From Vreelandella piezotolerans (GTDB taxonomy: Bacteria > Pseudomonadota > Gammaproteobacteria > Pseudomonadales > Halomonadaceae), in NCBI RefSeq assembly GCF_012427705.1, contig NZ_CP048602.1, forward strand, positions 2,604,001 to 2,668,000: a DNA stretch of 64,000 bases, given 5' to 3'. Positions 13,304 through 25,139 of this stretch are shown here, one piece after another (the first letter of the stretch is position 1; the number at the start of each line of letters is the position of its first letter). A program made the position numbers and the translations under genes. A model generated the notes under the pieces. The model made no database searches. It had not been told where the DNA came from and was given only the letters and a program-made list of their open reading frames with translations.

Positions 13304-13750
13304 TCAGAGAGACAAGCGCCCCAAAACCACAAAATGGAGCATCACCACACTCACCGTTAGCACACAACGCAGGATCAGATACCACTTGGGAAAGCCTTCG
13401 CGCCCTTCCCGGCTAATATCGTAGCCTCCCATCAACAGAAACCCTGCCAACAACACCCAAAGCCCGGTCACCGTGTTGAATAGCAAAGCGGGCCACGCTA
13501 TCAGGCTAGGCACCATGGCCAGTACTAGCCGCCGTACGTTGTTGTCACGGGGCACTTGAAGCGCACTGCCCCAATGAATGCCCCCTAAAAACGACAAAAT
13601 CACGGCGCTGTAGTAAGTAAAGCCATAGATGGCACTGACCTGCCAGACAGGCGGTGCCCACCAAGCGGCGAGGCCGCCACCGATGAACGGCAGCAGACCG
13701 GCCAAGCCTAAGCTCCATGCCAAGCGTTTTTCAGACTCCATTCGCGCCAT
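13304..13750 (-). CDS. DUF3429 integral membrane protein
   Basis: A 148-residue protein with about five hydrophobic segments and the conserved YSAVILSFLGGIHWG stretch of DUF3429 proteins. Function is unknown. The gene starts two bases after the stop of the cryptochrome gene, so it is probably translated from the same message. In several bacteria DUF3429 genes sit near photolyase genes, which would fit here, but I recall that only loosely. Confidence 0.85.
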   Translation of the reverse strand: MARMESEKRLAWSLGLAGLLPFIGGGLAAWWAPPVWQVSAIYGFTYYSAVILSFLGGIHWGSALQVPRDNNVRRLVLAMVPSLIAWPALLFNTVTGLWVLLAGFLLMGGYDISREGREGFPKWYLILRCVLTVSVVMLHFVVLGRLSL

Positions 13751-13752
13751 CG

Positions 13753-15174
13753 TTACTCATCCGTTTCTTCGAATTCGGTAGCAGCAATCAACCAGCGCTG
13801 CCACTCGTCCGGCAACACGCAAGGCTGCTTGAATTGAGAAGGTGCCACACGCCAGGGCTGGTGGCGCTCCAATCCATAAGGCAACGATTCGAGAGCAGGT
13901 AACCAGTAGGCCACGTAAAGCCCTTTCGGGTCGTAGTGGCCTGCCTGCTTCAATACATTGAAGTAGCGATCCTGCCGCGGATCGCGTCCCACTCCGGCAA
14001 TGTAGCGCCAGTTGCCCCAGTTACTGGCCACGTCATAATCGATCAGGCAGTGTTCGAACCACCAAGCCCCTAACCGCCAGTCGACCTGAAGATCTTTGAC
14101 TAAAAAGCTCGCGACGTTTTGTCGAGCCCGATTAGAGATCCAGCCAGTACGCCTGAGTTCGAGCATGGCAGCGTCAATGAAGGGGACACCGGTATCGGCG
14201 TTACGCCACGTATCGAAAGCCGCATTCGCAGCGGGCAGCGAATCACGGCCGAACAGTGACGCACCTTCAAGCTGCGCAGCGCGATGAAAATAGTCGCGCC
14301 ATAAAAGTTCGAAGACGATCCAGTAGCTTGATTCACAGCTACCGAACTCGGCCTCCCACGCTTTTACTTCGTGATTCACTTGGCGGGCTGATAGGCAGCC
14401 ACGGGAAAGCCACGGAGAAAAGCGCGTGGAGAAGTTGGCGCCTAGCAGGCCATTGCGCGTTTTCTTATAAGACTCCGCGCCGTTTTGACGCCATAAGTAG
14501 TGCTGTAAACGATCGTTCGCTGCCGACTCGCCGCCCACGAATACGAACCCCTGACGATTATCGGGTTGCCAAGCGGCGCTGGTTTCACACACCGACCTCA
14601 ACGGTGGGAAACCGCGTGGCGCACCGTCAGGCCAGCCTGGCAGGGTGACCGGCGCGGGTAAGGGAGGCGGTATTTCACACTGTTTTTCTACACTGCGACG
14701 AAACGCGGAAAAACTGGATGGCAACGCGTCCAATTCGAACGGCAGCGCAGCAGCGTCGATCAAATAACCGCTATCTGCACGGTAAAGTCGGCAACTATCG
14801 GGCAAACCGGCAGCCGCGCGAGTGATGTTCTTCGACTCTTCGCATCCTGAGTGTTCAGCCACTCGGACTTCACGCGCATCAAGCGAGGTAGCCAGTTCGA
14901 CGACGACCGCTGCCGGGTCGCCAATGCGCACCAACAGGTCGCTACCTCGGCGCAACAATTCTCCGCGAAGCTCCATCAAGCTTTGCCATAAAAAGCGCAA
15001 ACGCGCTGGTCCTAGCCTAGGCGTCTTTTCACCCGGCACGGCCGCCTGGAGCCAACGCTGGTCGAGCACGTAAAGGCAGAGTAGCTGATGTGGGCAGTGT
15101 TCGAAATGTAATAAGGGGTTGTCGGCGACACGCAGATTATCCTGCAGCCAGACAATGTCAGTCGTGCTGTTCAT
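13753..15174 (-). CDS. DASH-family cryptochrome / deoxyribodipyrimidine photolyase
   Basis: A 473-residue flavoprotein with an N-terminal photolyase alpha/beta domain starting DIVWLQDNLRVADNPLLHF and a C-terminal FAD-binding helical domain. DASH marks are YKKTRNGLLGANFSTRFSPW, ELLWRDYFHRAAQ and ASNWGNWRYIAGVGRDPRQD. DASH enzymes repair cyclobutane pyrimidine dimers mainly in single-stranded DNA and may also sense light. The ATG at 15174 has GAGG upstream and overlaps the end of the DUF2256 gene. A longer open frame to 15390 is only the shadow of that upstream gene. It probably shares a transcript with DUF2256 and DUF3429. Confidence 0.93.
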   Translation of the reverse strand: MNSTTDIVWLQDNLRVADNPLLHFEHCPHQLLCLYVLDQRWLQAAVPGEKTPRLGPARLRFLWQSLMELRGELLRRGSDLLVRIGDPAAVVVELATSLDAREVRVAEHSGCEESKNITRAAAGLPDSCRLYRADSGYLIDAAALPFELDALPSSFSAFRRSVEKQCEIPPPLPAPVTLPGWPDGAPRGFPPLRSVCETSAAWQPDNRQGFVFVGGESAANDRLQHYLWRQNGAESYKKTRNGLLGANFSTRFSPWLSRGCLSARQVNHEVKAWEAEFGSCESSYWIVFELLWRDYFHRAAQLEGASLFGRDSLPAANAAFDTWRNADTGVPFIDAAMLELRRTGWISNRARQNVASFLVKDLQVDWRLGAWWFEHCLIDYDVASNWGNWRYIAGVGRDPRQDRYFNVLKQAGHYDPKGLYVAYWLPALESLPYGLERHQPWRVAPSQFKQPCVLPDEWQRWLIAATEFEETDE

Positions 15175-15335
15175 GCTCTTGCCTCCTCGGCGTGCTGTGC
15201 TGCTTGGCCTCGCGACGGCAACGTTCGCTGCAGAAGCGCACCTCGTCCCAGCAGCGCGCCCATTTTTTTCCGCCAAGTAAATGGGCGCTGGCATTGAACG
15301 CAGTCTTTTTGCGGTAAATCGTGTTTCCGTTTCAT
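15158..15335 (-). pseudogene. DUF2256 gene split by a +1 shift in a poly-A run
   Basis: Reading from the ATG at 15335 gives MKRKHDLPQKDCVQCQRPFT then WRKK, the first half of DUF2256. At a run of seven A (coding strand; T at 15263-15269) the conserved second half WARCWDEVRFCSERCRREAK is found only in the next frame. With six A the whole family pattern of paired cysteines would be continuous and end at 15158 (about 58 residues). As given, the frame continues as an unrelated tail to a TGA at 15171 that overlaps the cryptochrome ATG. DUF2256 is a tiny Cys-rich protein often beside cryptochromes. Causes could be a sequencing error, a true mutation or ribosomal/transcriptional slippage. Confidence 0.8.
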
Positions 15336-15395
15336 CTATCCATCTCGCTGCGTGCTGGCTATGCCACGCTACGCCGTAATACATGGACATAATAA

Positions 15396-15422
15396 CTTAT
15401 ACAGTACAATTATTGTATATAA
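15396..15422. promoter_or_regulatory. Candidate operator/promoter of the DUF2256-cryptochrome unit
   Basis: CTTATAC and GTATATAA flank a 12-base spacer (core TATAC-N12-GTATA at 15398-15419), and a perfect inner repeat TACAA-TTA-TTGTA lies at 15405-15417. On the minus strand the outer arm provides a TATAAG that could be a -10 element, with no good -35, as expected for an activator-dependent promoter. It is about 60 bases upstream of the DUF2256 start and resembles the site before the photolyase at 22767-22796. Confidence 0.5.
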
Positions 15423-15476
15423 ATTGATACCTCGACTTTGCCATAACACGCACCTACCCTCTTTTAAGTCGCGCAT

Positions 15477-15504
15477 AAAAAAAGCCACCCAACCTGGGTG
15501 GCTT
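15477..15504 (-). terminator. Rho-independent terminator of the mrp operon
   Basis: On the minus strand AAGCCACCC and GGGTGGCTT form a 9-base stem with a 5-base loop, followed by seven T. It lies just after the mrpG stop. Confidence 0.88.
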
Positions 15505-15529
15505 CTCTTAATTACGGTGACTCTTAACG

Positions 15530-15934
15530 TTAGTCGGGATCGGTATTGCGAGGGTGGCGCTTCGCGTTTTCTTGCGTCTCCATACCGCTTTTCAGCTCAT
15601 GGGTGAGCGGGTCGTAGTTAGGGCGCAGCTCATCTTTGACCGTGCCGCTCCAAAGCCGAGAACCTACAAAGTAACCGGCTCGGCCAATCACGTGGGCGGC
15701 AATAGGTGCGGTGATCAAAATGAACACGATAATGGCTAACGAACGAGCGACGACCCCTACCTCGGCAAAATGCATGGCCGAGGCCAACATGATCAGAATC
15801 ACACCCAGCGCGGCGGCTTTGGTGGTGGCATGCATGCGTGTCAGTAGATCGGGCAAGCGAAGGAGCCCTACGGCGGCTAGCAGCATAAAACTCGCGCCAA
15901 CCAGCAGCATGGCGCCTTTGATGGCATCAATCAT
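15530..15934 (-). CDS. mrpG: Na+/H+ antiporter subunit G
   Basis: A 134-residue subunit with three transmembrane segments and the PhaG/MnhG/YufB pattern (LLRLPDLLTRMHATTKAAALG). Subunit G is part of the small-subunit cluster (E-F-G) that is needed for assembly of the Mrp complex in the inner membrane. The ATG at 15934 overlaps the mrpF stop by eight bases; the frame is open 13 codons further upstream, but that lies within mrpF. The C-terminal ~35 residues are polar and cytoplasmic, longer than in some homologues. Confidence 0.93.
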   Translation of the reverse strand: MIDAIKGAMLLVGASFMLLAAVGLLRLPDLLTRMHATTKAAALGVILIMLASAMHFAEVGVVARSLAIIVFILITAPIAAHVIGRAGYFVGSRLWSGTVKDELRPNYDPLTHELKSGMETQENAKRHPRNTDPD

Positions 15935-16196
15935 CCCGAGGCCCTCCCCGTTCCAAGAAGCGTGCAAAGCCAATCGCGGCCAAAAACCCCATCAACGCAA
16001 TGACGATGGCCGCATCCAAAAAGCTGGAGACGCCCGATTGAATGGCATACACACCGACCAACCCCACGACCGTCGTCGAGAACAGTTCTAGGGCCACTAC
16101 GCGATCTGGCAGACTAGGTCCACGCACCACGCGAACGAAGGTCAGCACGAGCGCCAAGCCCATGATCACCTGACTAATTAAAATCACGGTTTCCAT
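15927..16196 (-). CDS. mrpF: Na+/H+ antiporter subunit F
   Basis: An 89-residue subunit with three hydrophobic segments and the RVVRGPSLPDRVVALELF motif of MnhF/PhaF proteins. It works within the small-subunit module of the Mrp antiporter. Its ATG overlaps the mrpE stop by one base (TAATG) and its stop overlaps the mrpG start, so translation is coupled along the operon. Confidence 0.94.
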   Translation of the reverse strand: METVILISQVIMGLALVLTFVRVVRGPSLPDRVVALELFSTTVVGLVGVYAIQSGVSSFLDAAIVIALMGFLAAIGFARFLERGGPRDD

Positions 16197-16669
16197 TAAC
16201 GAAATAACTCCAGTGCCCTGTGTTCCATCTCTTTCAAATTGCGCCGAAGCTCCTCTTCGTCGTCCAGGAACATCGCATGGATATACAACACTTTACGGTC
16301 ATCGGACACGTCTAGGCTCAGGGTACCCGGTGTGAGCGAAATCAAATTCGCCACCAGGGTGATCTCCATTTCGGTGCGTGCCGACAGCGGTAAGGCAATG
16401 ACCCCCGGCTGCATGTGCCAAGGCGGCGTCAGGATATCGAATGCCACGCGTAAGTTGGCCTGAACCAACTCTTTGATGAAAAAGCCGAGAAAGCCGATGA
16501 AGCGCGGCACACGAGCAGGATAGCCTTTCAACCCATCGACTTGAGGCTCGATCAGCAGCAACGCGATATAGCCAAAAATCATCCCTACCAACAAATTCAA
16601 CCCGGAGAAGTCGCCGCTCAGCAGCACCCAGGCCAAACCAAGCAAGAGGTTCCAAATGGCGCCTGTCAT
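16196..16669 (-). CDS. mrpE: Na+/H+ antiporter subunit E
   Basis: A 157-residue protein with hydrophobic N-terminal segments and a soluble C-terminal part (LVANLISLTPGTLSLDVSDD, LYIHAMFLDDEEELRRNLKE) typical of MnhE/PhaE. It bridges the large and small subunits of the antiporter. The ATG overlaps the mrpD stop by four bases (ATGA). Confidence 0.94.
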   Translation of the reverse strand: MTGAIWNLLLGLAWVLLSGDFSGLNLLVGMIFGYIALLLIEPQVDGLKGYPARVPRFIGFLGFFIKELVQANLRVAFDILTPPWHMQPGVIALPLSARTEMEITLVANLISLTPGTLSLDVSDDRKVLYIHAMFLDDEEELRRNLKEMEHRALELFR

Positions 16670-18267
16670 GGTGTTTCCTCCAAGCGGTCATCGACACGTT
16701 CGGCCTGTATCTCAAGGGGATCCAGTAGCGCTGCTTCCGCGCTTGCGGAGGCACCGAGTACCGCTTCGATATAGCCTGAAGGCGTCATCAATTGATCGCC
16801 TATTTGGTTCATCACCAGCATGATGGGTTCGGCAAACACGCCAATGAGCAGGGACATCATGGCCAGCACCACGACAGGCAGATACATCATCCACAGGCTG
16901 GGCTTCAGCAACCGGCCGTCATCGCCAGTCGGTGTCGGTGTTTCGGGCACCTGGTTTTCTTCAGGTAGCGCCTTCCAGAACACTTCGTTCCAGATCTTCA
17001 CCATGGAGTAGAGCGTCATCAAACCCACGGCCAGAGCGATGCCGGTCGCCACGTAAGCCTCTGCCTCAAAGCCCGCGCGCACCAGCACGAACTTCGCAAA
17101 AAACCCCGAGAGCGGTGGGATACCCGCCAGAGAAAACGCGCTGATAAAAAACGCGACGGCCAGCCAAGGCCGCTCACGATAGAGCCCACCCATTTTTTTG
17201 AGCTGGTACGTCCCTTGGAGGCGATGCGTAATGCCGCTGATCAAGAACAGGTTCGTCTTGACGATGATATTGTGCATGATCGCGAACACACCGCCGGCAA
17301 TGGCCAGCGGCGTATAGAGCGCCAGTCCCAATATCATGTAACCAATCTGACTGACGATATGAAACGAGAGGATACGACGAAATTCATACTGAGCGGCGGC
17401 GCCTAACACGCCGGTCACCATGGTCAATACTGCTCCCCACAGCATGATGTCTTGGAGGTAGCCCATGGTTTGATCAAAGATCAGCGTAAATACCCGAAAC
17501 AGCGAGTAAACGCCCACCTTGGTGAGCAGTCCCGCAAACAACGCCGATACCGCCACCGGCGGCGTATGATAGGACGCAGGCAGCCAAAAAAATAGCGGAA
17601 ACGCGGCGGCTTTGATACCAAAGGCCACCATGAACATCACCGCCAGCACTTCGACCATACCGCTGTGCTCGGCCTCATCCATGCGCAGCGCAATATCGGC
17701 CATATTGAGCGTTCCCACCGTGCCGTAGAGCAACCCCACCGCGCTGAGAAAAATCACCGAAGCCAGCAGGTTGAGCGTGACGTACTTGATGGCGCCCTCC
17801 ATCTGGGCGCGCTCGCCACCGAGCGTTAGGAGCGCAAACGAGGCCACCAACATCACTTCGAACCAGACATAGAGGTTGAAGATATCGCCCGTTAAAAAGG
17901 CGCCCGCCACCCCCGCCAGTAGCAAATGCATCAGCGGGTAGTAGCCAAATTTTTCGTGGCCGCGGCCAGTCGTCGCCAGGGAGTAAATCCCCATGGCCAA
18001 GCCGATGATGCCGGTGAGCAGTATCATCACAGCGCTGAGCATGTCAGCGACGAGCGTTATCCCAAACGGTGCTGGCCAGCTGCCCATTTGAATGGTGATG
18101 TAGCCATCTTCTAAGACCGCAACGAACAGCCACAGGCTGACGACGAATAGCGCGACGTTGCCCGCCACGGCAATAAAACGCTGCATCGGGCGCGAACGCC
18201 AAAACATCAGCGAAATGGCCCCAGAAAGTAGCGGCAGTAAAACGGGGAGTGCGACTTCAGGCCTCAC
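16666..18267 (-). CDS. mrpD: Na+/H+ antiporter subunit D
   Basis: A 533-residue, about 14-helix subunit related to NuoM/NuoN of complex I, with the proton-channel module (PF00361). Marks include [41 protein letters not shown] and [18 protein letters not shown], which hold the conserved Glu and Lys residues of the ion path. Together with MrpA it is the likely proton and sodium translocating part. The start is GTG, overlapping the mrpC stop (GTGA). Confidence 0.96.
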
Positions 18268-18611
18268 GTGTCGGTATCCTTCATCTTGTCCAAGTCATCG
18301 GCCTTGACGATTTCATAAGCGCGGCGAATCAGCACCACCGCAAACGCCAATACACCAAAGGCAATCACGATAGCCGTCAATACCACTGCTTGCGGCAAGG
18401 GGTCGGCAACGCCACCCAATGGCTGCATCATGCCTTCGGGGATCAGGGGGGGCGCACCCCGCGTCATACCGGCCGTGGTAAAAATTAACAGGTTAGCGGC
18501 GTTAGACAGTAGCAGCAGACCAATCACCAGCTTGACGATAGAGCGACGCAACATCATGAATATGGCGGTCGCGTAGAGCAGGCCTATGACGAGGGCCATT
18601 AACGGTTCCAT
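18264..18611 (-). CDS. mrpC: Na+/H+ antiporter subunit C
   Basis: A 115-residue NuoK-like subunit with three helices ([36 protein letters not shown]). It joins the MrpA and MrpD modules. The gap to mrpB is 33 bases, the largest in the operon. The stop overlaps the mrpD start. Confidence 0.95.
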
Positions 18612-18644
18612 CGGCGACCTCCCGATTCGATGAGTCTAAGGGAC

Positions 18645-19076
18645 TTATGGCTCATCCTTATCCACCTCCATTAATGCCATGACCATACCCATGACGGAGC
18701 CCAGTACCGCCAGATAGACGCCAATATCGAAAATCAGCGGCGTCGAGGCTTTGAAGTCGATCACCGGAATCGTCCACCACTGAGCAGTCAGAAAAGGCTG
18801 CCCCATGAACCAAGCGGGCACTACCGAGATCATCCCAAAAAAGAGTCCTGCGCCGATCAAGTCTCGCGGGTCGACCATGCGCAGTACCTCTTTCGTGGCG
18901 CTTACGCCAAAGGCAAATAAATACAAAGTGAACGCGCCCGCTGCCACGAGCCCAGCAATGAATCCTCCCCCGGGCTCATCATGCCCCCGCAGCAGCAGGA
19001 AGACCGAGAACATGAGCTGCAGCGGCATGAGAAAGCGCGCTGCGGTGTTTAAAATGATCGTGCCTGATTTAACCAT
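18645..19076 (-). CDS. mrpB: Na+/H+ antiporter subunit B
   Basis: A 143-residue membrane subunit with the MnhB signature ([23 protein letters not shown]). In some bacteria this domain is fused to MrpA; here it is a separate gene whose ATG overlaps the mrpA stop by eight bases. It is needed for assembly and activity of the complex. Confidence 0.95.
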
Positions 19077-21417
19077 CGTAGGGCTCCTTCACGCTGGCTT
19101 TTTCGCCACTATTTGTCCTACCCTCCGTTTCGCCGTGGCGAAGCTTGAGCATGGCAATCACGCCAATGGCGGCCAACGCTAGCACGAACATCTCACCCAA
19201 GGTGTCGAGGGCACGGTAATCGACCAGGATGACATTGACGATATTTCGACCATGGGCAAGCGGCGCACTGTTCTCGACCATGTAGGTCGAGATGCTTTCG
19301 AACTGATCGATACTCCACGCCGTCATGATCAATAAGAACATCAGCACGCCCATGGTCGCTGCAACCGACCCATCGCGAATGCGCTCCAGATTCGTGGAGA
19401 GGTTGGAGAAGCGAGGCAGCCGGAAGAGCACCAGGACTAGCAGAATCACCGTCATGGTTTCAACGAGCAGTTGGGTAATGCCTAAGTCCGGCGCGCTGAA
19501 CAGAATGAAGATCAGCGCGATGGAGAAGCCCATGATGCCGACCGAGACAACGGCTCCCAACCGAGAGCGCGAAATCGTGGCGAACAGAGCCCCCATCGCC
19601 ATGGTGCCCACCACGATCACTTCGTGAAAGCGCACGTCTAGCTCGAGCGCTAGCTGGGGGGAATGGCGCAACAAAATGGAGTTGCCGATTAGCGCAATCA
19701 GCACGACCAGCATCACCAATATATAGTTACGCATATAGCCGTTTTGCAGGAGTCGAGTTTGCCACTCGGAAAAGCGCACGATGCCATTCATCAGGCCCTC
19801 GTAGCCTGCTTCGGGCCCATAGCGCATCACGGGGGTCAGTCTGGCCAACTGGCCACGTACACTGTCCCAACGCTTGAAGAGAAAGAAACCGAGCAGTAGG
19901 CTCACCACGGACATGATCAACGCCATGTTGACGCCATACCACAGCGACAGCGAGATCGGCAGCGCCTCCCCCGCCACTGCCGTGGCCGCCGACGTCAATA
20001 ACGCATCGGCTCCCAACATGGCGGGCGCTAAGCCAAGCGCGAGCGATCCAAGGGCCAATAGGCCTGGGCCGATCAGCATGCTTAGCGGTGCTTCATGGGG
20101 CGTTTTAGGAGTTTCATGGCGTGCGCCATAAAAAGGTCGCAGCGCGATGATGGACGCCACCGCAATGGTCAACACGGCCGCCATAAAGGCGAACACCACC
20201 AATATTGACCGGACACGCTCGGCGCCTAGCGCTGCTTCGAGCATTAGCTCTTTACCGATAAAGCCGAGTAACGGTGGCACACCCGCCAAGGAAAGCGCTG
20301 CTATCAGTGCAATGGTCGCCGTCACGGGCATCACGCTGCGCAGTCCCCCCATGGCCGTGACATCCTTGGTACCGGTTTCGTGATCAAGAATCCCCGCCAC
20401 CATGAACAGGGCGCCTTTGTACAGTGAGTGGGCCAGCAAGAACGTCACGAACGCTGTCATGGCATACTCGGAGCCAATGCCTAACAGCATGGTCAGCGTA
20501 CCCAGCGCCATGACCGTCGAGTACGCCAGCAACTTCTTGATGTTGGTGTGATGAATCGCCAGAAAAGCGCCGGTCAGCATGGTGGTCGCTCCGACCACGG
20601 AGAGTATCGTCACCCATAGGGCAGTGCCACCCAGCTCGGGCTGCAGCCGTGCCAATAAGTAAATGCCCGCCTTCACCATGGTGGCGGAGTGCAGATAGGC
20701 GGACACGGGCGTTGGCGCTGCCATGGCGTTGGGCAACCAGAAATGGAAAGGGAACTGCGCCGATTTGGTAAACGCACCCAGCAACAAACAGATCAACATG
20801 GGGGTATAGAGCGCGTGTTGGCGCAGGTCCTCATCGGCGCGCAGAATGTCATGGAGAGACCAGCTACCGCTTGCTACACCCAGCAGCACTAGCCCTGCCA
20901 TCAGTGCCAACCCACCGGCCACCGTCACGAACAAACCTTGACGTGCCGATTTACGCGCCTCGATATCCTGGTGATTGAAGCCAATCAGGAGGTAGGAGGT
21001 GATGCTGGTCAGTTCCCAAAAAATGAATAGCGTAAGCAGGCCATCGGCGAGCACGAGCCCCAGCATGGAGGCCATGAACGCGACCAGAGCCAAATGGAAA
21101 CGGGCCATATCCTGATGACCTTTCAAATAGCCACCTGCATAGACCAAGACGCAGGTGCCGATCCCCGTAATCAGCAAGCCAAACAGCAGCGACAGGCCAT
21201 CGAGCAAAAAGCTTAAGCTGATACCCAATGACGGCACCCACGACCACGCCAATAGCTGAGGGCCCTCATGGAGAACCAACGGCGCTTGGCTTAACAACCA
21301 AGCGGCCAAAAGTGCCGGAAATAGCGCAAGCAGCAGGCTTGCTCGCTCCCCAAACCAGCGGTTGAGCAGCGGTGACAGCGCTGCCAACACGAAGCCCATT
21401 AATACGGCAAATTGCAT
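19069..21417 (-). CDS. mrpA: Na+/H+ antiporter subunit A
   Basis: A 782-residue subunit, first gene of the mrp operon. The NuoL-like part holds the proton-channel module ([51 protein letters not shown]). After it comes the MbhD/DUF4040 and MbhE-like C-terminus ([34 protein letters not shown]). The complex exchanges cytoplasmic Na+ for H+ and supports growth in salt and at high pH, apt for a halophile. GGGAGAAGG precedes the ATG. The gene order A-B-C-D-E-F-G is complete and uninterrupted. Confidence 0.97.
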
Positions 21418-21566
21418 CCGGCGCCTTCTCCCTAATTGCGTGCATTCACCTCAAAACGGCCGCTTGTCGACACGTCAGCAGCCGTTCGAGCGTTGAATAA
21501 GTGTGATTTTATATCCACAAACCTTATACCAACCCTTCCCACTTTTCTAGGAAAGTCGTTCTCAAT

Positions 21567-21601
21567 AAAAAACCGCCTAGCGCAATACGCTAGGCGGTTT
21601 T
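21567..21601 (-). terminator. Rho-independent terminator after hemH
   Basis: A perfect 14-base stem (AAAACCGCCTAGCG paired with CGCTAGGCGGTTTT) with a 5-base loop. On the minus strand the stem ends in a run of six T, so it serves hemH. Confidence 0.92.
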
Positions 21602-21619
21602 ATGCACCGCCATATGACG

Positions 21620-22699
21620 TTACGTTGTTGGTAACCAACCCGATAATTCGTTATTCACTACCGCCAATAGTGCATCGATATGGTCATCGCGATCGTTCAA
21701 GCAAGGGATGTAGCTAAAGGTTTCACCACCCGCTTCCATGAAACTATCGTGGATCTCCTCTTTGATCTCTTCGAGGGTCTCGACACAATCAGAGGAAAAG
21801 GCTGGCGAAAGAATCGCAATGTGCTTGTGCCCTTGTTTCGCCAGTTCGGCAACATGGTCGACCGTTTGCGGACCGACCCACTTTTCAGGACCGAACTGCG
21901 ACTGAAACGCAGTATCGACCTCCTCTTTGCTCAACCCCAGCTTTTCACGCAGTAGGCGCGTCGTTTTCTGACACTGGCAGTGGTAGGGGTCACCCTCCAT
22001 CAGATAACGCTCCGGCACGCCGTGATAGCTCGCCACGAGTTTGGTGGGACGACTATCGAAGCCGTCGTACGCCTCTTGTACCGAGTTAGCCAACGCCTGG
22101 ATATACGTCGGATGCTCGAAATAGGCCGGTACGGTACGGATATAGGGCTGCCACTTCATTTTCATCAGCGTACGAAACGCTTGATCATTGGCAGTAGCGG
22201 TAGTGGGCGAGCCGTACTGCGGATAGAGCGGGAAGAAGACGATGCGCTCACAACCCTTCTCTTTCATGCGTTTGAGCACGCTGTCCGTTGAAGGATTGCC
22301 GTAGCGCATACAGAAATCGACCTCGACATCGTCGCCGTAAAGCGCTTTCAGGCGCTCGGTCATTTTTTCCGTTTGTGCACGGGTGATGGTCAGCAACGGG
22401 CTTTCGTTCTTCTCGTTATTCCAGATGCTTTTGTACGCGTTGCCCGAGGAGAACGGACGCTTGGTCAGGATGATGAGCTGCAAAAGAGGCTGCCATTTCC
22501 ATCCGGCATAATCTACGACTCGTTTATCGGACAAGAACTCGCTGAGATAGCGACGCATGGACCAGTAATCGGTGGCATCGGGCGTTCCCAGATTCGCTAG
22601 AACGACGCCCACCTTGGCGCGGGGAACGGCAGGGTGGCTGCTGGGCGCGTGGGCCAAGCGCCCCTCACCGGGTTGATCCTTCACGATGCTATCGGCCAT
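21620..22699 (-). CDS. hemH: Ferrochelatase
   Basis: A 359-residue enzyme that inserts Fe2+ into protoporphyrin IX, the last step of haem synthesis. Family marks are GVVLANLGTPDATDYWSMRR, the VASYHGVPERYLMEGDPY region with the catalytic His, TRLLREKLGL and FQSQFGPEKWVGP. GAGGAG is nine bases before the ATG at 22699; an 18-codon upstream extension has no support. The N-terminal ~30 residues before the conserved core are unusually polar. It is divergent from the photolyase, sharing a 110-base control region. Loss of ferrochelatase makes bacteria light-sensitive through porphyrin build-up, so a light link is plausible. Confidence 0.95.
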   Translation of the reverse strand: MADSIVKDQPGEGRLAHAPSSHPAVPRAKVGVVLANLGTPDATDYWSMRRYLSEFLSDKRVVDYAGWKWQPLLQLIILTKRPFSSGNAYKSIWNNEKNESPLLTITRAQTEKMTERLKALYGDDVEVDFCMRYGNPSTDSVLKRMKEKGCERIVFFPLYPQYGSPTTATANDQAFRTLMKMKWQPYIRTVPAYFEHPTYIQALANSVQEAYDGFDSRPTKLVASYHGVPERYLMEGDPYHCQCQKTTRLLREKLGLSKEEVDTAFQSQFGPEKWVGPQTVDHVAELAKQGHKHIAILSPAFSSDCVETLEEIKEEIHDSFMEAGGETFSYIPCLNDRDDHIDALLAVVNNELSGWLPTT

Positions 22700-22766
22700 C
22701 TCGCTAACTCCTCGGGTGTACGTAATGGGCAAAATCTTAACACTTTTCAGCAAAGTCGCGGCATAA

Positions 22767-22796
22767 AGTTATACTATCAACATTATTTGTATAACT
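22767..22796. promoter_or_regulatory. Perfect inverted repeat between hemH and the photolyase, candidate light-responsive operator
   Basis: AGTTATAC and GTATAACT form a perfect 8-base inverted repeat with a 14-base AT-rich spacer. The right arm contains TATAAC, a good -10 element for the photolyase, whose ATG is only 12 bases further on, so the leader would be very short. By symmetry the left arm gives TATAAC toward hemH. No good -35 is present on either side. The core matches the site before the cryptochrome unit. Confidence 0.55.
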
Positions 22797-22808: not shown

Positions 22809-24422
22809 ATGTCCAAGCCGTTACTCCTGGTACTGGGTGATCAGCTCACGCTGACGCTGCCAACCCTTCGCGAAGCGCCTTCCAATGCGGTGGTGGCGAT
22901 GTGCGAAGTGGCCGAAGAGGCACGCTACGTGCCTCACCATCTGCATAAGATCGGTCTTTTCATGGCCGCCATGCGCCACTTTGCCGACGCCTTGAGAGAC
23001 AAAGGCTATACGGTGCATTACAGCCGCATCAATGATGGCGATAACACCCAGTCGCTGATAGAAGAAGCCGAGCGGCTCGCCAAGCAGTACGGCTGTGATG
23101 AAATTCGCGTTACCCGCCCCGGCGAGTGGCGGCTGTGGAACGACATGCAGCAGCGCCAACACAACGCCCTCCCCTGGCAGTTGTGGGAAGATGACCGCTT
23201 CTTCACCACACCGGACGACTTTTCACGCTGGGCAGAGGGCCGCAAACAGCTGCGCCTGGAGTATTTCTACCGCGAGCAGCGCAAGCGCACCGGCCTGCTC
23301 ATGGAGGGCGATACGCCCAGCGGCGGCCAGTGGAACTACGACCACGACAACCGCGAGCCCATCGATGCCTCGCTGAGCTTTCCTGCACTGCCCAACCACG
23401 GCCAGGATGACGTGACAAAAGCAGCTCTTAAGGACGCCGCTGACCATTTCGCTGATCACATGGGAACGATGGAGACCTTCAACTTGCCGGTCACCCGGCG
23501 GCAGGCACTGGTCGATTTGAACCACTTCATCGAACACGGGCTAGCAGACTTTGGCCGCTACCAAGATGCCATTAGTGACCGAGAACCCTTTTTGTATCAC
23601 TCACGCCTGTCTGCGGCGATGAACATTGGCCTGCTCTCGCCGATGGAAGTGTGTGACGCCGCCGAGGCGCACTACCATGCGGGCAAAGCGCCTATCAATG
23701 CGGTAGAGGGTTTCATCCGCCAAATACTCGGCTGGCGCGAATACGTGCGCGGGCTCTACTGGACGCACATGCCCGGGTACAAACAGGAGAACCAGCTAGG
23801 CTTCACCCGCGAGCTGCCCGCGTTTTATTGGGACGCCAACACCGACATGCGCTGCCTGCAGCGCGCCATTCAAATGACCATCGACAACAGCTATGCGCAC
23901 CACATCCAGCGACTCATGGTCACCGGCAACTTTGCCCTGCTGTGCGGCGTCAAGCCCGAAGCGCTGTGCGACTGGTACCTCGCCGTCTACGCCGATGCCT
24001 GCGAGTGGGTCGAACTGCCTAATACCCTCGGGATGGTACTGCACGCCGATGGCGGTTTGATGGGCTCCAAGCCTTACTGCGCTTCGGGTAAATACATCGA
24101 TAAGATGTCTGATCACTGTCAGCACTGTCGCTACTCGCCCAAACAGATGACCGGCCCCAAAGCCTGCCCTTTCAACAGTCTTTACTGGCACTTTTTGGAA
24201 ACCAATGCGGAACGGCTCAACCGTAATCCACGAATGAAGCTCATTTATGGCTCGTTAGGACGCATGAAAGAGGAGAAGCGCGAGGCCATTCGCCAGCAGG
24301 CCGAGCAATTCCTTGCCAAACTGCCAACCAGTAAAGGCTACGGCCAACCGGCGCATACGAAGGGCTATGCCTCTGCTGCCCAACACGCTTCCTCTACATC
24401 TAACTCGGAGAACCGCTCATGA
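22809..24422 (+). CDS. Fe-S bacterial cryptochrome/(6-4) photolyase (PhrB/FeS-BCP type)
   Basis: A 537-residue flavoprotein of the class whose type member is Agrobacterium PhrB, which repairs (6-4) photoproducts. It starts LLLVLGDQLTLTLPTL, as in that class. The four [4Fe-4S] ligands are visible: Cys349 (DMRCLQ), Cys437 and Cys440 (HCQHC) and Cys453 (KACPFN), a spacing equal to that of PhrB. The FAD pocket lies around GFIRQILGWREYVRGLYW and HHIQRLMVTGNFALL. The C-terminus carries a ~30-residue polar tail. The gene overlaps the next one by four bases and begins right after the inverted repeat described at 22767-22796. Confidence 0.95.
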   Translation: MSKPLLLVLGDQLTLTLPTLREAPSNAVVAMCEVAEEARYVPHHLHKIGLFMAAMRHFADALRDKGYTVHYSRINDGDNTQSLIEEAERLAKQYGCDEIRVTRPGEWRLWNDMQQRQHNALPWQLWEDDRFFTTPDDFSRWAEGRKQLRLEYFYREQRKRTGLLMEGDTPSGGQWNYDHDNREPIDASLSFPALPNHGQDDVTKAALKDAADHFADHMGTMETFNLPVTRRQALVDLNHFIEHGLADFGRYQDAISDREPFLYHSRLSAAMNIGLLSPMEVCDAAEAHYHAGKAPINAVEGFIRQILGWREYVRGLYWTHMPGYKQENQLGFTRELPAFYWDANTDMRCLQRAIQMTIDNSYAHHIQRLMVTGNFALLCGVKPEALCDWYLAVYADACEWVELPNTLGMVLHADGGLMGSKPYCASGKYIDKMSDHCQHCRYSPKQMTGPKACPFNSLYWHFLETNAERLNRNPRMKLIYGSLGRMKEEKREAIRQQAEQFLAKLPTSKGYGQPAHTKGYASAAQHASSTSNSENRS

Positions 24423-24836: not shown

Positions 24837-25139
24837 TCAAAAGACGAGCGGCATACGCGAGGTCAGCGGCGCACTATAATGAGCGTCGCGGCCAATCACC
24901 TCATCTTGAGGCACGTGCTGCACTAAGTAGGCGCGATGGATACCCGCACGCTTGAGCTCTAGATAAACGTCATCCAGTGAGCGAAACAGCATCGGTTTAC
25001 CGCGCTGCATCAACATGTGGCGCTCACCTTCTACATCTTCAAGCTCGACTTGGTAAAAACGACTACCCGAATGGGTAATCACACGGATTTCAAAATTGTC
25101 GTGATTCACGACGAACTGTTTCAGCGCTTTCAGTTCCAT
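24837..25139 (-). CDS. DUF6482-like small protein
   Basis: A 100-residue soluble protein beginning MELKALKQFVVNHDNFEIRV with a central LFRSLDDVYLELKRAGI helix and the C-terminal YLVQHVPQDEVIG region. This resembles small Pseudomonas and Halomonas proteins classed as DUF6482; function unknown. AGGAGG stands before the ATG, so translation is well supported. It converges on the DCC-family gene with a gap of only 13 bases. Confidence 0.75.
   Translation of the reverse strand: MELKALKQFVVNHDNFEIRVITHSGSRFYQVELEDVEGERHMLMQRGKPMLFRSLDDVYLELKRAGIHRAYLVQHVPQDEVIGRDAHYSAPLTSRMPLVF

Follow-up and report, generated by a model that had tools for sequence, protein, structure and literature searches.

Paired half-sites before photolyase and cryptochrome genes of Vreelandella piezotolerans as candidate operators of a single LitR/CarH-type regulator

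The DNA analysed here, hereafter the window, is a 64-kb stretch (NZ_CP048602.1:2,604,001-2,668,000, assembly GCF_012427705.1) of the 3.95-Mb genome of Vreelandella piezotolerans. It carries an Fe-S photolyase gene, which we take to be of the CryB/PhrB type, and a DUF2256-cryptochrome-DUF3429 unit, and an inverted repeat built on TATAC and GTATA lies in front of each. The original prediction, made from the window alone, had proposed that one regulator, plausibly a light regulator of MerR/LitR type, acts on both repeats. The two repeats are indeed present, at 22767-22796 and at 15396-15422, and the two loci comprise the following features.

13304-13750, minus strand: DUF3429 gene of the cryptochrome unit (PF11911)
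13753-15174, minus strand: DASH-type cryptochrome gene (TIGR02765, 454.7 bits for a cut-off of 317; PF03441, PF00875)
15201-15335 (end approximate), minus strand: DUF2256 reading frame, frameshifted within a poly-A run, named by the earlier reader and by eye
15396-15401, minus strand: TATAAG, likely -10 of the DUF2256-cryptochrome-DUF3429 unit, from sequence and comparison
15398-15419, no strand: TATAC-N12-GTATA core of the palindrome CTTATAC (15396-15402)-N12-GTATATAA (15415-15422), seen in the sequence
15404-15419, minus strand: conserved predicted operator core TATACAATAATTGTAC, of the form TRTACA-N5-TRTAY with half-sites 11 bp apart, from 28 of 30 loci
21620-22699, minus strand: hemH (ferrochelatase, profile match), divergent neighbour of the photolyase site
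22767-22796, no strand: inverted repeat AGTTATAC (22767-22774)-N14-GTATAACT (22789-22796), seen in the sequence
22770-22793, before the Fe-S photolyase gene: predicted photolyase operator core TATACT-N12-TGTATA, from the sequence and 37 orthologous loci
22770-22775, plus strand: TATACT, likely photolyase -10, within the left arm, placed from the sequence
22809-24422, plus strand: Fe-S photolyase/cryptochrome gene (PF04244, DPRP)

As far as searched, these are the only two photolyase/cryptochrome units of the window, as had been predicted, but the genome holds two more genes of the family, one of phrB type at G000:C1:173068 and another at G000:C1:3456491. The motif TATAC-N12..14-GTATA occurs exactly twice in the window and in none of 100 dinucleotide shuffles of it; several other pattern counts were paired with a reversed-pattern control. 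Genome-wide, TATAC-N10..16-GTATA is found at four places versus five for the control, a lack of enrichment that makes the count alone unusable as evidence. Of the four places, one precedes the photolyase, one the cryptochrome unit and one a TIGR03643/DUF2805 gene, and the fourth lies between genes recognised by eye as LysE-like and YebC/TACO1-like. The genome scan suggested with the original prediction was therefore informative by position but not by number.

A match to the Fe-S photolyase was obtained in 37 of 58 genomes, our own included. Thirty loci were fetched, of which 26 from the same genus (own included) align from residue 1, whereas L055 lacks the start and L052-L054 come from other families. 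From a second set of 80 named loci, 72 were kept and eight dropped (match not starting at position 2501, or short locus). Eleven of these belong to Halomonadaceae with the site (Vreelandella, Halomonas, Franzmannia, Onishia and Salinicola; 65-84% identity), and together with the 26 they form a set of 37 orthologous loci in which the same species may be counted twice. TRTAC-N14-GTAYA is present in all 37. The left half TRTAC and the N12 spacing are invariant, and the right half TGTAYA is kept in 35. The core starts 39 bases before the ATG in every one of the 26 same-genus loci, and at -39 or -40 in 11 of the 12 named Halomonadaceae loci. Information averages 1.55 bits per arm position and 1.44 over the whole site, whereas the flank between -110 and -50 averages 0.49. 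The right half varies most often by a T-to-C exchange (5/37), at a position where the Pseudomonas consensus discussed below is itself degenerate; it reads TGTACA in L032, L047, L050 and L056, and in Halomonas alimentaria (L152) both halves have changed together to give TGTACT-N12-TGTACA. The site was absent at the same place from the three other-family relatives, and likewise from the remaining 61 named loci of the 72, one of which (L215) is the twelfth Halomonadaceae locus. The likely -10 is assigned to the left arm because one in the right arm would leave hardly any leader. A small gene near the photolyase, at 24837-25139 on the minus strand, looks by eye like the small gene preceding cryB in the Pseudomonas contigs L168 and L169.

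At the cryptochrome unit, 30 loci were compared, all from the same genus. The literal palindrome TATAC-N12-GTATA is found in only two of them, our own genome and its nearest relative, and we rejected it as the conserved element of this locus. TRTACA-N10-TGTATA occurs in 19 loci, and TRTACA-N5-TRTAY in 28 (reversed control 0/30); the two others (L090 and L112) show near forms by eye. From this comparison the outer GTATAAG is more likely a -10 than a repeat arm. The expectation that relatives keep the repeats was thus borne out at the photolyase, and at the cryptochrome unit in a modified form. Likewise, the half-sites of the two loci are similar, as had been proposed, while the shared palindrome is not conserved; the differing spacer, seen earlier as a weak point, reflects two layouts of a similar half-site rather than one palindrome with a 12/14 wobble. 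Judged from the aligned loci, this conservation shows selection on both sites across the Halomonadaceae. The results also fit the absence of a good -35: a scan for sigma-70-like promoters gave no match overlapping the photolyase site, and the one overlapping the cryptochrome site (15384-15413) is weak (9/12) and on the plus strand, the wrong one for the unit. Separately, the DUF2256 frame is intact in 23 of 30 loci, shifted in our genome and in L114, and was not found by a pattern search in L093, L094, L096, L104 and L113; the shift in our genome lies in a poly-A run (15263-15269), where a sequencing error is possible.

The search for a regulator of the proposed type led to one gene, beside phrB.

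G000:C1:174430-175356, outside the window: litR, LitR/CarH-type MerR gene encoding 309 residues, directly before phrB

The genome has 10 MerR_1 matches, and judged by the length of the open frame and a B12-binding match only this one, at about 175 kb, has the LitR architecture: its C-terminal part is long, and a B12-binding profile matches weakly at this position (PF02310, 19.7 bits, under the cut-off of 32.1). The N-terminal part is a MerR-type helix-turn-helix (HTH) (PF13411, 63.5 bits; cut-off 21.6), and residues 7-254 align with CarH (5c8d) at an E value of 2.7e-20. In CarH, the histidine of the GERHEIG segment ligates the cobalt of adenosylcobalamin (AdoB12). The aligned LitR segment contains no histidine in our genome nor in any of 30 genus loci, and sensing through AdoB12 is therefore not expected; a looser D-x-H-x-x-G pattern in LitR of L143 and L144 lies near the C-terminus and not at the GERHEIG place. 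Counting our own, 36 of the 37 genomes of the genus have a single LitR-type gene, matched at E 1.4e-138 or lower. In our genome it is followed by phrB, a short-chain dehydrogenase/reductase (SDR) gene, an FAD oxidoreductase gene, DUF1365, a cyclopropane-synthase-like gene and DUF2878. Its own promoter carries TGTACC-N14-TGTACA in all 30 fetched loci (reversed control 0/30). NCRFLQ is a motif of LOV domains. A single DNA pattern for this motif, its variants not being searched, found no short LOV protein across the genome; its two matches fall in long frames resembling LOV-GGDEF-EAL proteins by eye.

Related half-sites were found elsewhere in the genome, the folE and TIGR03643 comparisons covering, like that of litR, 30 fetched loci each.

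G000:C1:2030859-2030893 (L230, L021), before folE: three half-sites, TGTACA-N5-TATACC-N12-TGTACA, both layouts joined
G000:C1:3537823-3537838 (L233), before a DUF4149 gene: TGTACATTAATTATAC, with AAGATAAT a short way after it

TRTAC-N14-GTAYA has seven occurrences versus three for the control, namely the photolyase, TIGR03643, folE and four others (495509, 1008317, 2574264 and 2799661). TRTACA-N5-TRTAC also occurs at seven, versus one: the cryptochrome unit, folE, the DUF4149 gene and four others (248664, 762798, 890233 and 2169684). With folE in both lists there are 13 distinct places, five of them at known or proposed light genes. FolE, identified by TIGR00063 (249.6 bits), supplies the pterin for the antenna cofactor; before its gene, paired half-sites are found in 22 of 30 loci with a looser pattern (reversed control 0/30). 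The site 63 bases before the TIGR03643/DUF2805 gene has no mismatch to the Pseudomonas consensus given below. Among the few DUF4149 homologues, a half-site pair 11 bp apart is present in G011 and G018 and not in G016, which is in two pieces, or G034, a fragment. The DUF4149 promoter is very similar to the cryptochrome-unit promoter of relatives. At one of the other places, G000:C1:248664-248679 (L227), TATACAAATAGTGTAC immediately precedes a small open frame, MFGLFNRDPQKK....

The known regulators closest to these observations are the class II LitR proteins of Pseudomonas (PplR1-3 of P. putida KT2440 and PmlR2 of P. mendocina), for which we draw on excerpts of PMC9758184. According to these, PmlR2 was footprinted on TGTACA-N12-TGTACA, the PplR1 consensus is T(G/A)TACA-N12-TGTA(C/T)A, and the light-inducible genes that depend on PplR include pplR1, phrB, cryB and folE. 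The photolyase site has one mismatch to this consensus. The proteins share a MerR HTH with a C-terminus resembling a B12 domain; much as described for the pmlR1 region, litR is next to phrB, and SDR, FAD oxidoreductase and CFA/UfaM-like genes are close by; phrB, cryB and folE are targets there, and putative sites precede their counterparts here. The half-sites are also alike. In our genome the N12 spacing recurs at the photolyase and TIGR03643 sites; litR has N14 and the cryptochrome unit N5. Our genome differs further in that litR is present once and not in two or three copies, that our one motif search gave no short LOV protein, and that TIGR03643, DUF4149 and the DUF2256-DASH cryptochrome-DUF3429 unit join the candidate targets. 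The cryB match of two Pseudomonas contigs (L168 and L169) is preceded by TGTACA-N5-TGTAT at a distance of 391-392 bases, and that of two more at 1.8 kb; the pattern gave eight matches in 80 loci versus one for the reversed control. In the same two contigs, TGTACAAAAATTGTAT precedes a small gene that itself precedes cryB.

The class I CarH/LitR proteins of Thermus, Bacillus and Myxococcus, AdoB12 photosensor repressors, are sequence relatives of our LitR. Their operators are described in excerpts of PMC8156234 as tandem 11-bp repeats overlapping the promoter, and the half-sites of the cryptochrome unit are also 11 bp apart; the full CarH operator consensus, nAnnTnnACAn, is matched by eye only in part. 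The differences are the missing histidine and the likely targets, photolyases here and not carotenoid genes. A further parallel is V. cholerae VCA0056, a MerR-family gene predicted to share an operon with the photolyase gene phr (VCA0057) and with a blue-light response; according to excerpts of PMC5241685 its authors found no LOV photoreceptor, and these excerpts give no operator. Among the matches listed for open-licence papers in PubMed Central, we saw none on LitR in Halomonas.

The reading that best accounts for these data is that the only LitR/CarH-type MerR regulator of the genome, of a class II-like kind, uses both repeats as its operators, and we put the probability of this at roughly 80%. 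The sequence shows the sites with their conservation and geometry, the litR gene and the half-sites in the litR promoter; binding, repression, release by light, the operon structure and the -10 assignments are inferred. In the dark, LitR would act as a repressor on paired TRTAC/GTAYA half-sites and block RNA polymerase. The half-sites would overlap the -10 and start region at the photolyase, and would lie just upstream of the -10 at the cryptochrome unit and at litR-phrB. Blue light, acting directly or via a partner, would release LitR and allow joint expression of the photolyase, the cryptochrome unit, litR-phrB and folE.

Several observations weigh against this reading. LitR binding and the light response at both sites are predictions. 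Several layouts (N12, N14, N5 and mixed) must suit one protein, and several regulators are conceivable; that one protein reads them all is plausible by analogy with the plasticity of CarH. The left half of the photolyase site is TATACT/G in 36 of 37 loci, a mismatch to the Pseudomonas consensus, and the right half is CGTATA in two. The homologue of Vreelandella jeotgali (L215), also of the Halomonadaceae but at only 54% identity, has no such site. Of the 13 distinct places, eight lie away from recognised light genes. The looser folE pattern was chosen after the sequences had been seen and is missing from eight of 30 loci, and the strict form TRTACA-N12-KGTAYA is present in only four. The TIGR03643 site matches at 12/12 only in our genome and G028 (2/30), G015 scoring 10/12 at the same place and the other 27 loci 10/12 or less at best. 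Finally, G003, a draft of 230 contigs, has both sites and yet no LitR match; it gave two photolyase-family matches, compared with three in 25 of the 37 genus genomes, and the litR-phrB block may have dropped out of the assembly.

The strongest competitor, which we nevertheless consider improbable, is that two regulators are at work, a dimeric repressor on the inverted N12 site of the photolyase and LitR on the 11-bp-spaced site of the cryptochrome unit. The two layouts do differ and do not interconvert inside either locus, and the prevailing left half of the photolyase site is unlike the TGTACA common at litR and the cryptochrome unit. Nevertheless, the folE promoter combines both layouts, the H. 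alimentaria site has TGTACT-N12-TGTACA at the photolyase, and only one of the 10 MerR_1 matches has the LitR architecture.

It is considerably less likely that the photolyase repeat represents two facing -10 elements in overlapping divergent promoters of the photolyase and hemH. TATACT does read rightwards and TATACA leftwards, and hemH is the divergent neighbour in all 37 orthologous loci. However, we disfavour this explanation because the right half is TGTACA in five loci, L152 and the four named with it, a sequence that matches a LitR half-site perfectly and a -10 poorly. It also fails to account for the invariant spacing and leaves the sites at the cryptochrome unit, litR, folE and TIGR03643 unexplained, and a plausible separate hemH -10, TGTTAAGAT on the minus strand, is seen by eye between the repeat and hemH, nearer the hemH start. 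The related suggestion that hemH is a third target of the shared site is unproven; repeat and hemH are never apart in the 37 loci, so that the comparison cannot decide on it.

That the repeat works as a hairpin in the 5' leader of the photolyase transcript is very unlikely. The repeat folds into an 8-pair stem with a 14-base loop, seven or eight of the eight pairs are kept in 33 of 37 loci, and the joint change of the arms in L152 would also fit. Its stability, though, is not above that of shuffles (z -0.87; 36/200 at least as good), the likely -10 in the left arm would leave that arm outside the RNA, and L047, L050 and L056 retain only four or five pairs while keeping TGTAYA. A half-site kept while pairs are lost, with a fold no better than shuffles, favours a protein-binding site, and the hairpin was rejected. 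That the repeats are functionless chance palindromes of AT-rich DNA is hardly credible: the loose motif is no commoner genome-wide than its control, but the elements are kept in 37/37 and 28/30 loci while the flank diverges, and the window motif never arose in shuffles.

Operation of both sites by LitR would place them in a class II-like light regulon, in our best reading of a kind already known in another family, that of Pseudomonas. A more specific picture for the Halomonadaceae, which we offer only tentatively, would be a compact regulon with one LitR lacking both B12 and a short LOV partner, and with one half-site used in several spacings (inverted N12, N14 and 11-bp tandem). The light signal might then come from, for example, a LOV-GGDEF-EAL protein, the photolyase or cryptochrome targets themselves, or photo-oxidative stress, and the TIGR03643 and DUF4149 proteins might be light-repair accessories. 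The finding raises the question of how light is sensed for a LitR that lacks the B12-ligand histidine and has no obvious short LOV partner. It also adds folE, TIGR03643, DUF4149 and the DUF2256-cryptochrome-DUF3429 unit to the candidate light genes. Two look-alike repeats may thereby have led to a testable light regulon in a halophile family of biotechnological use, with predicted operators precise enough to mutate.

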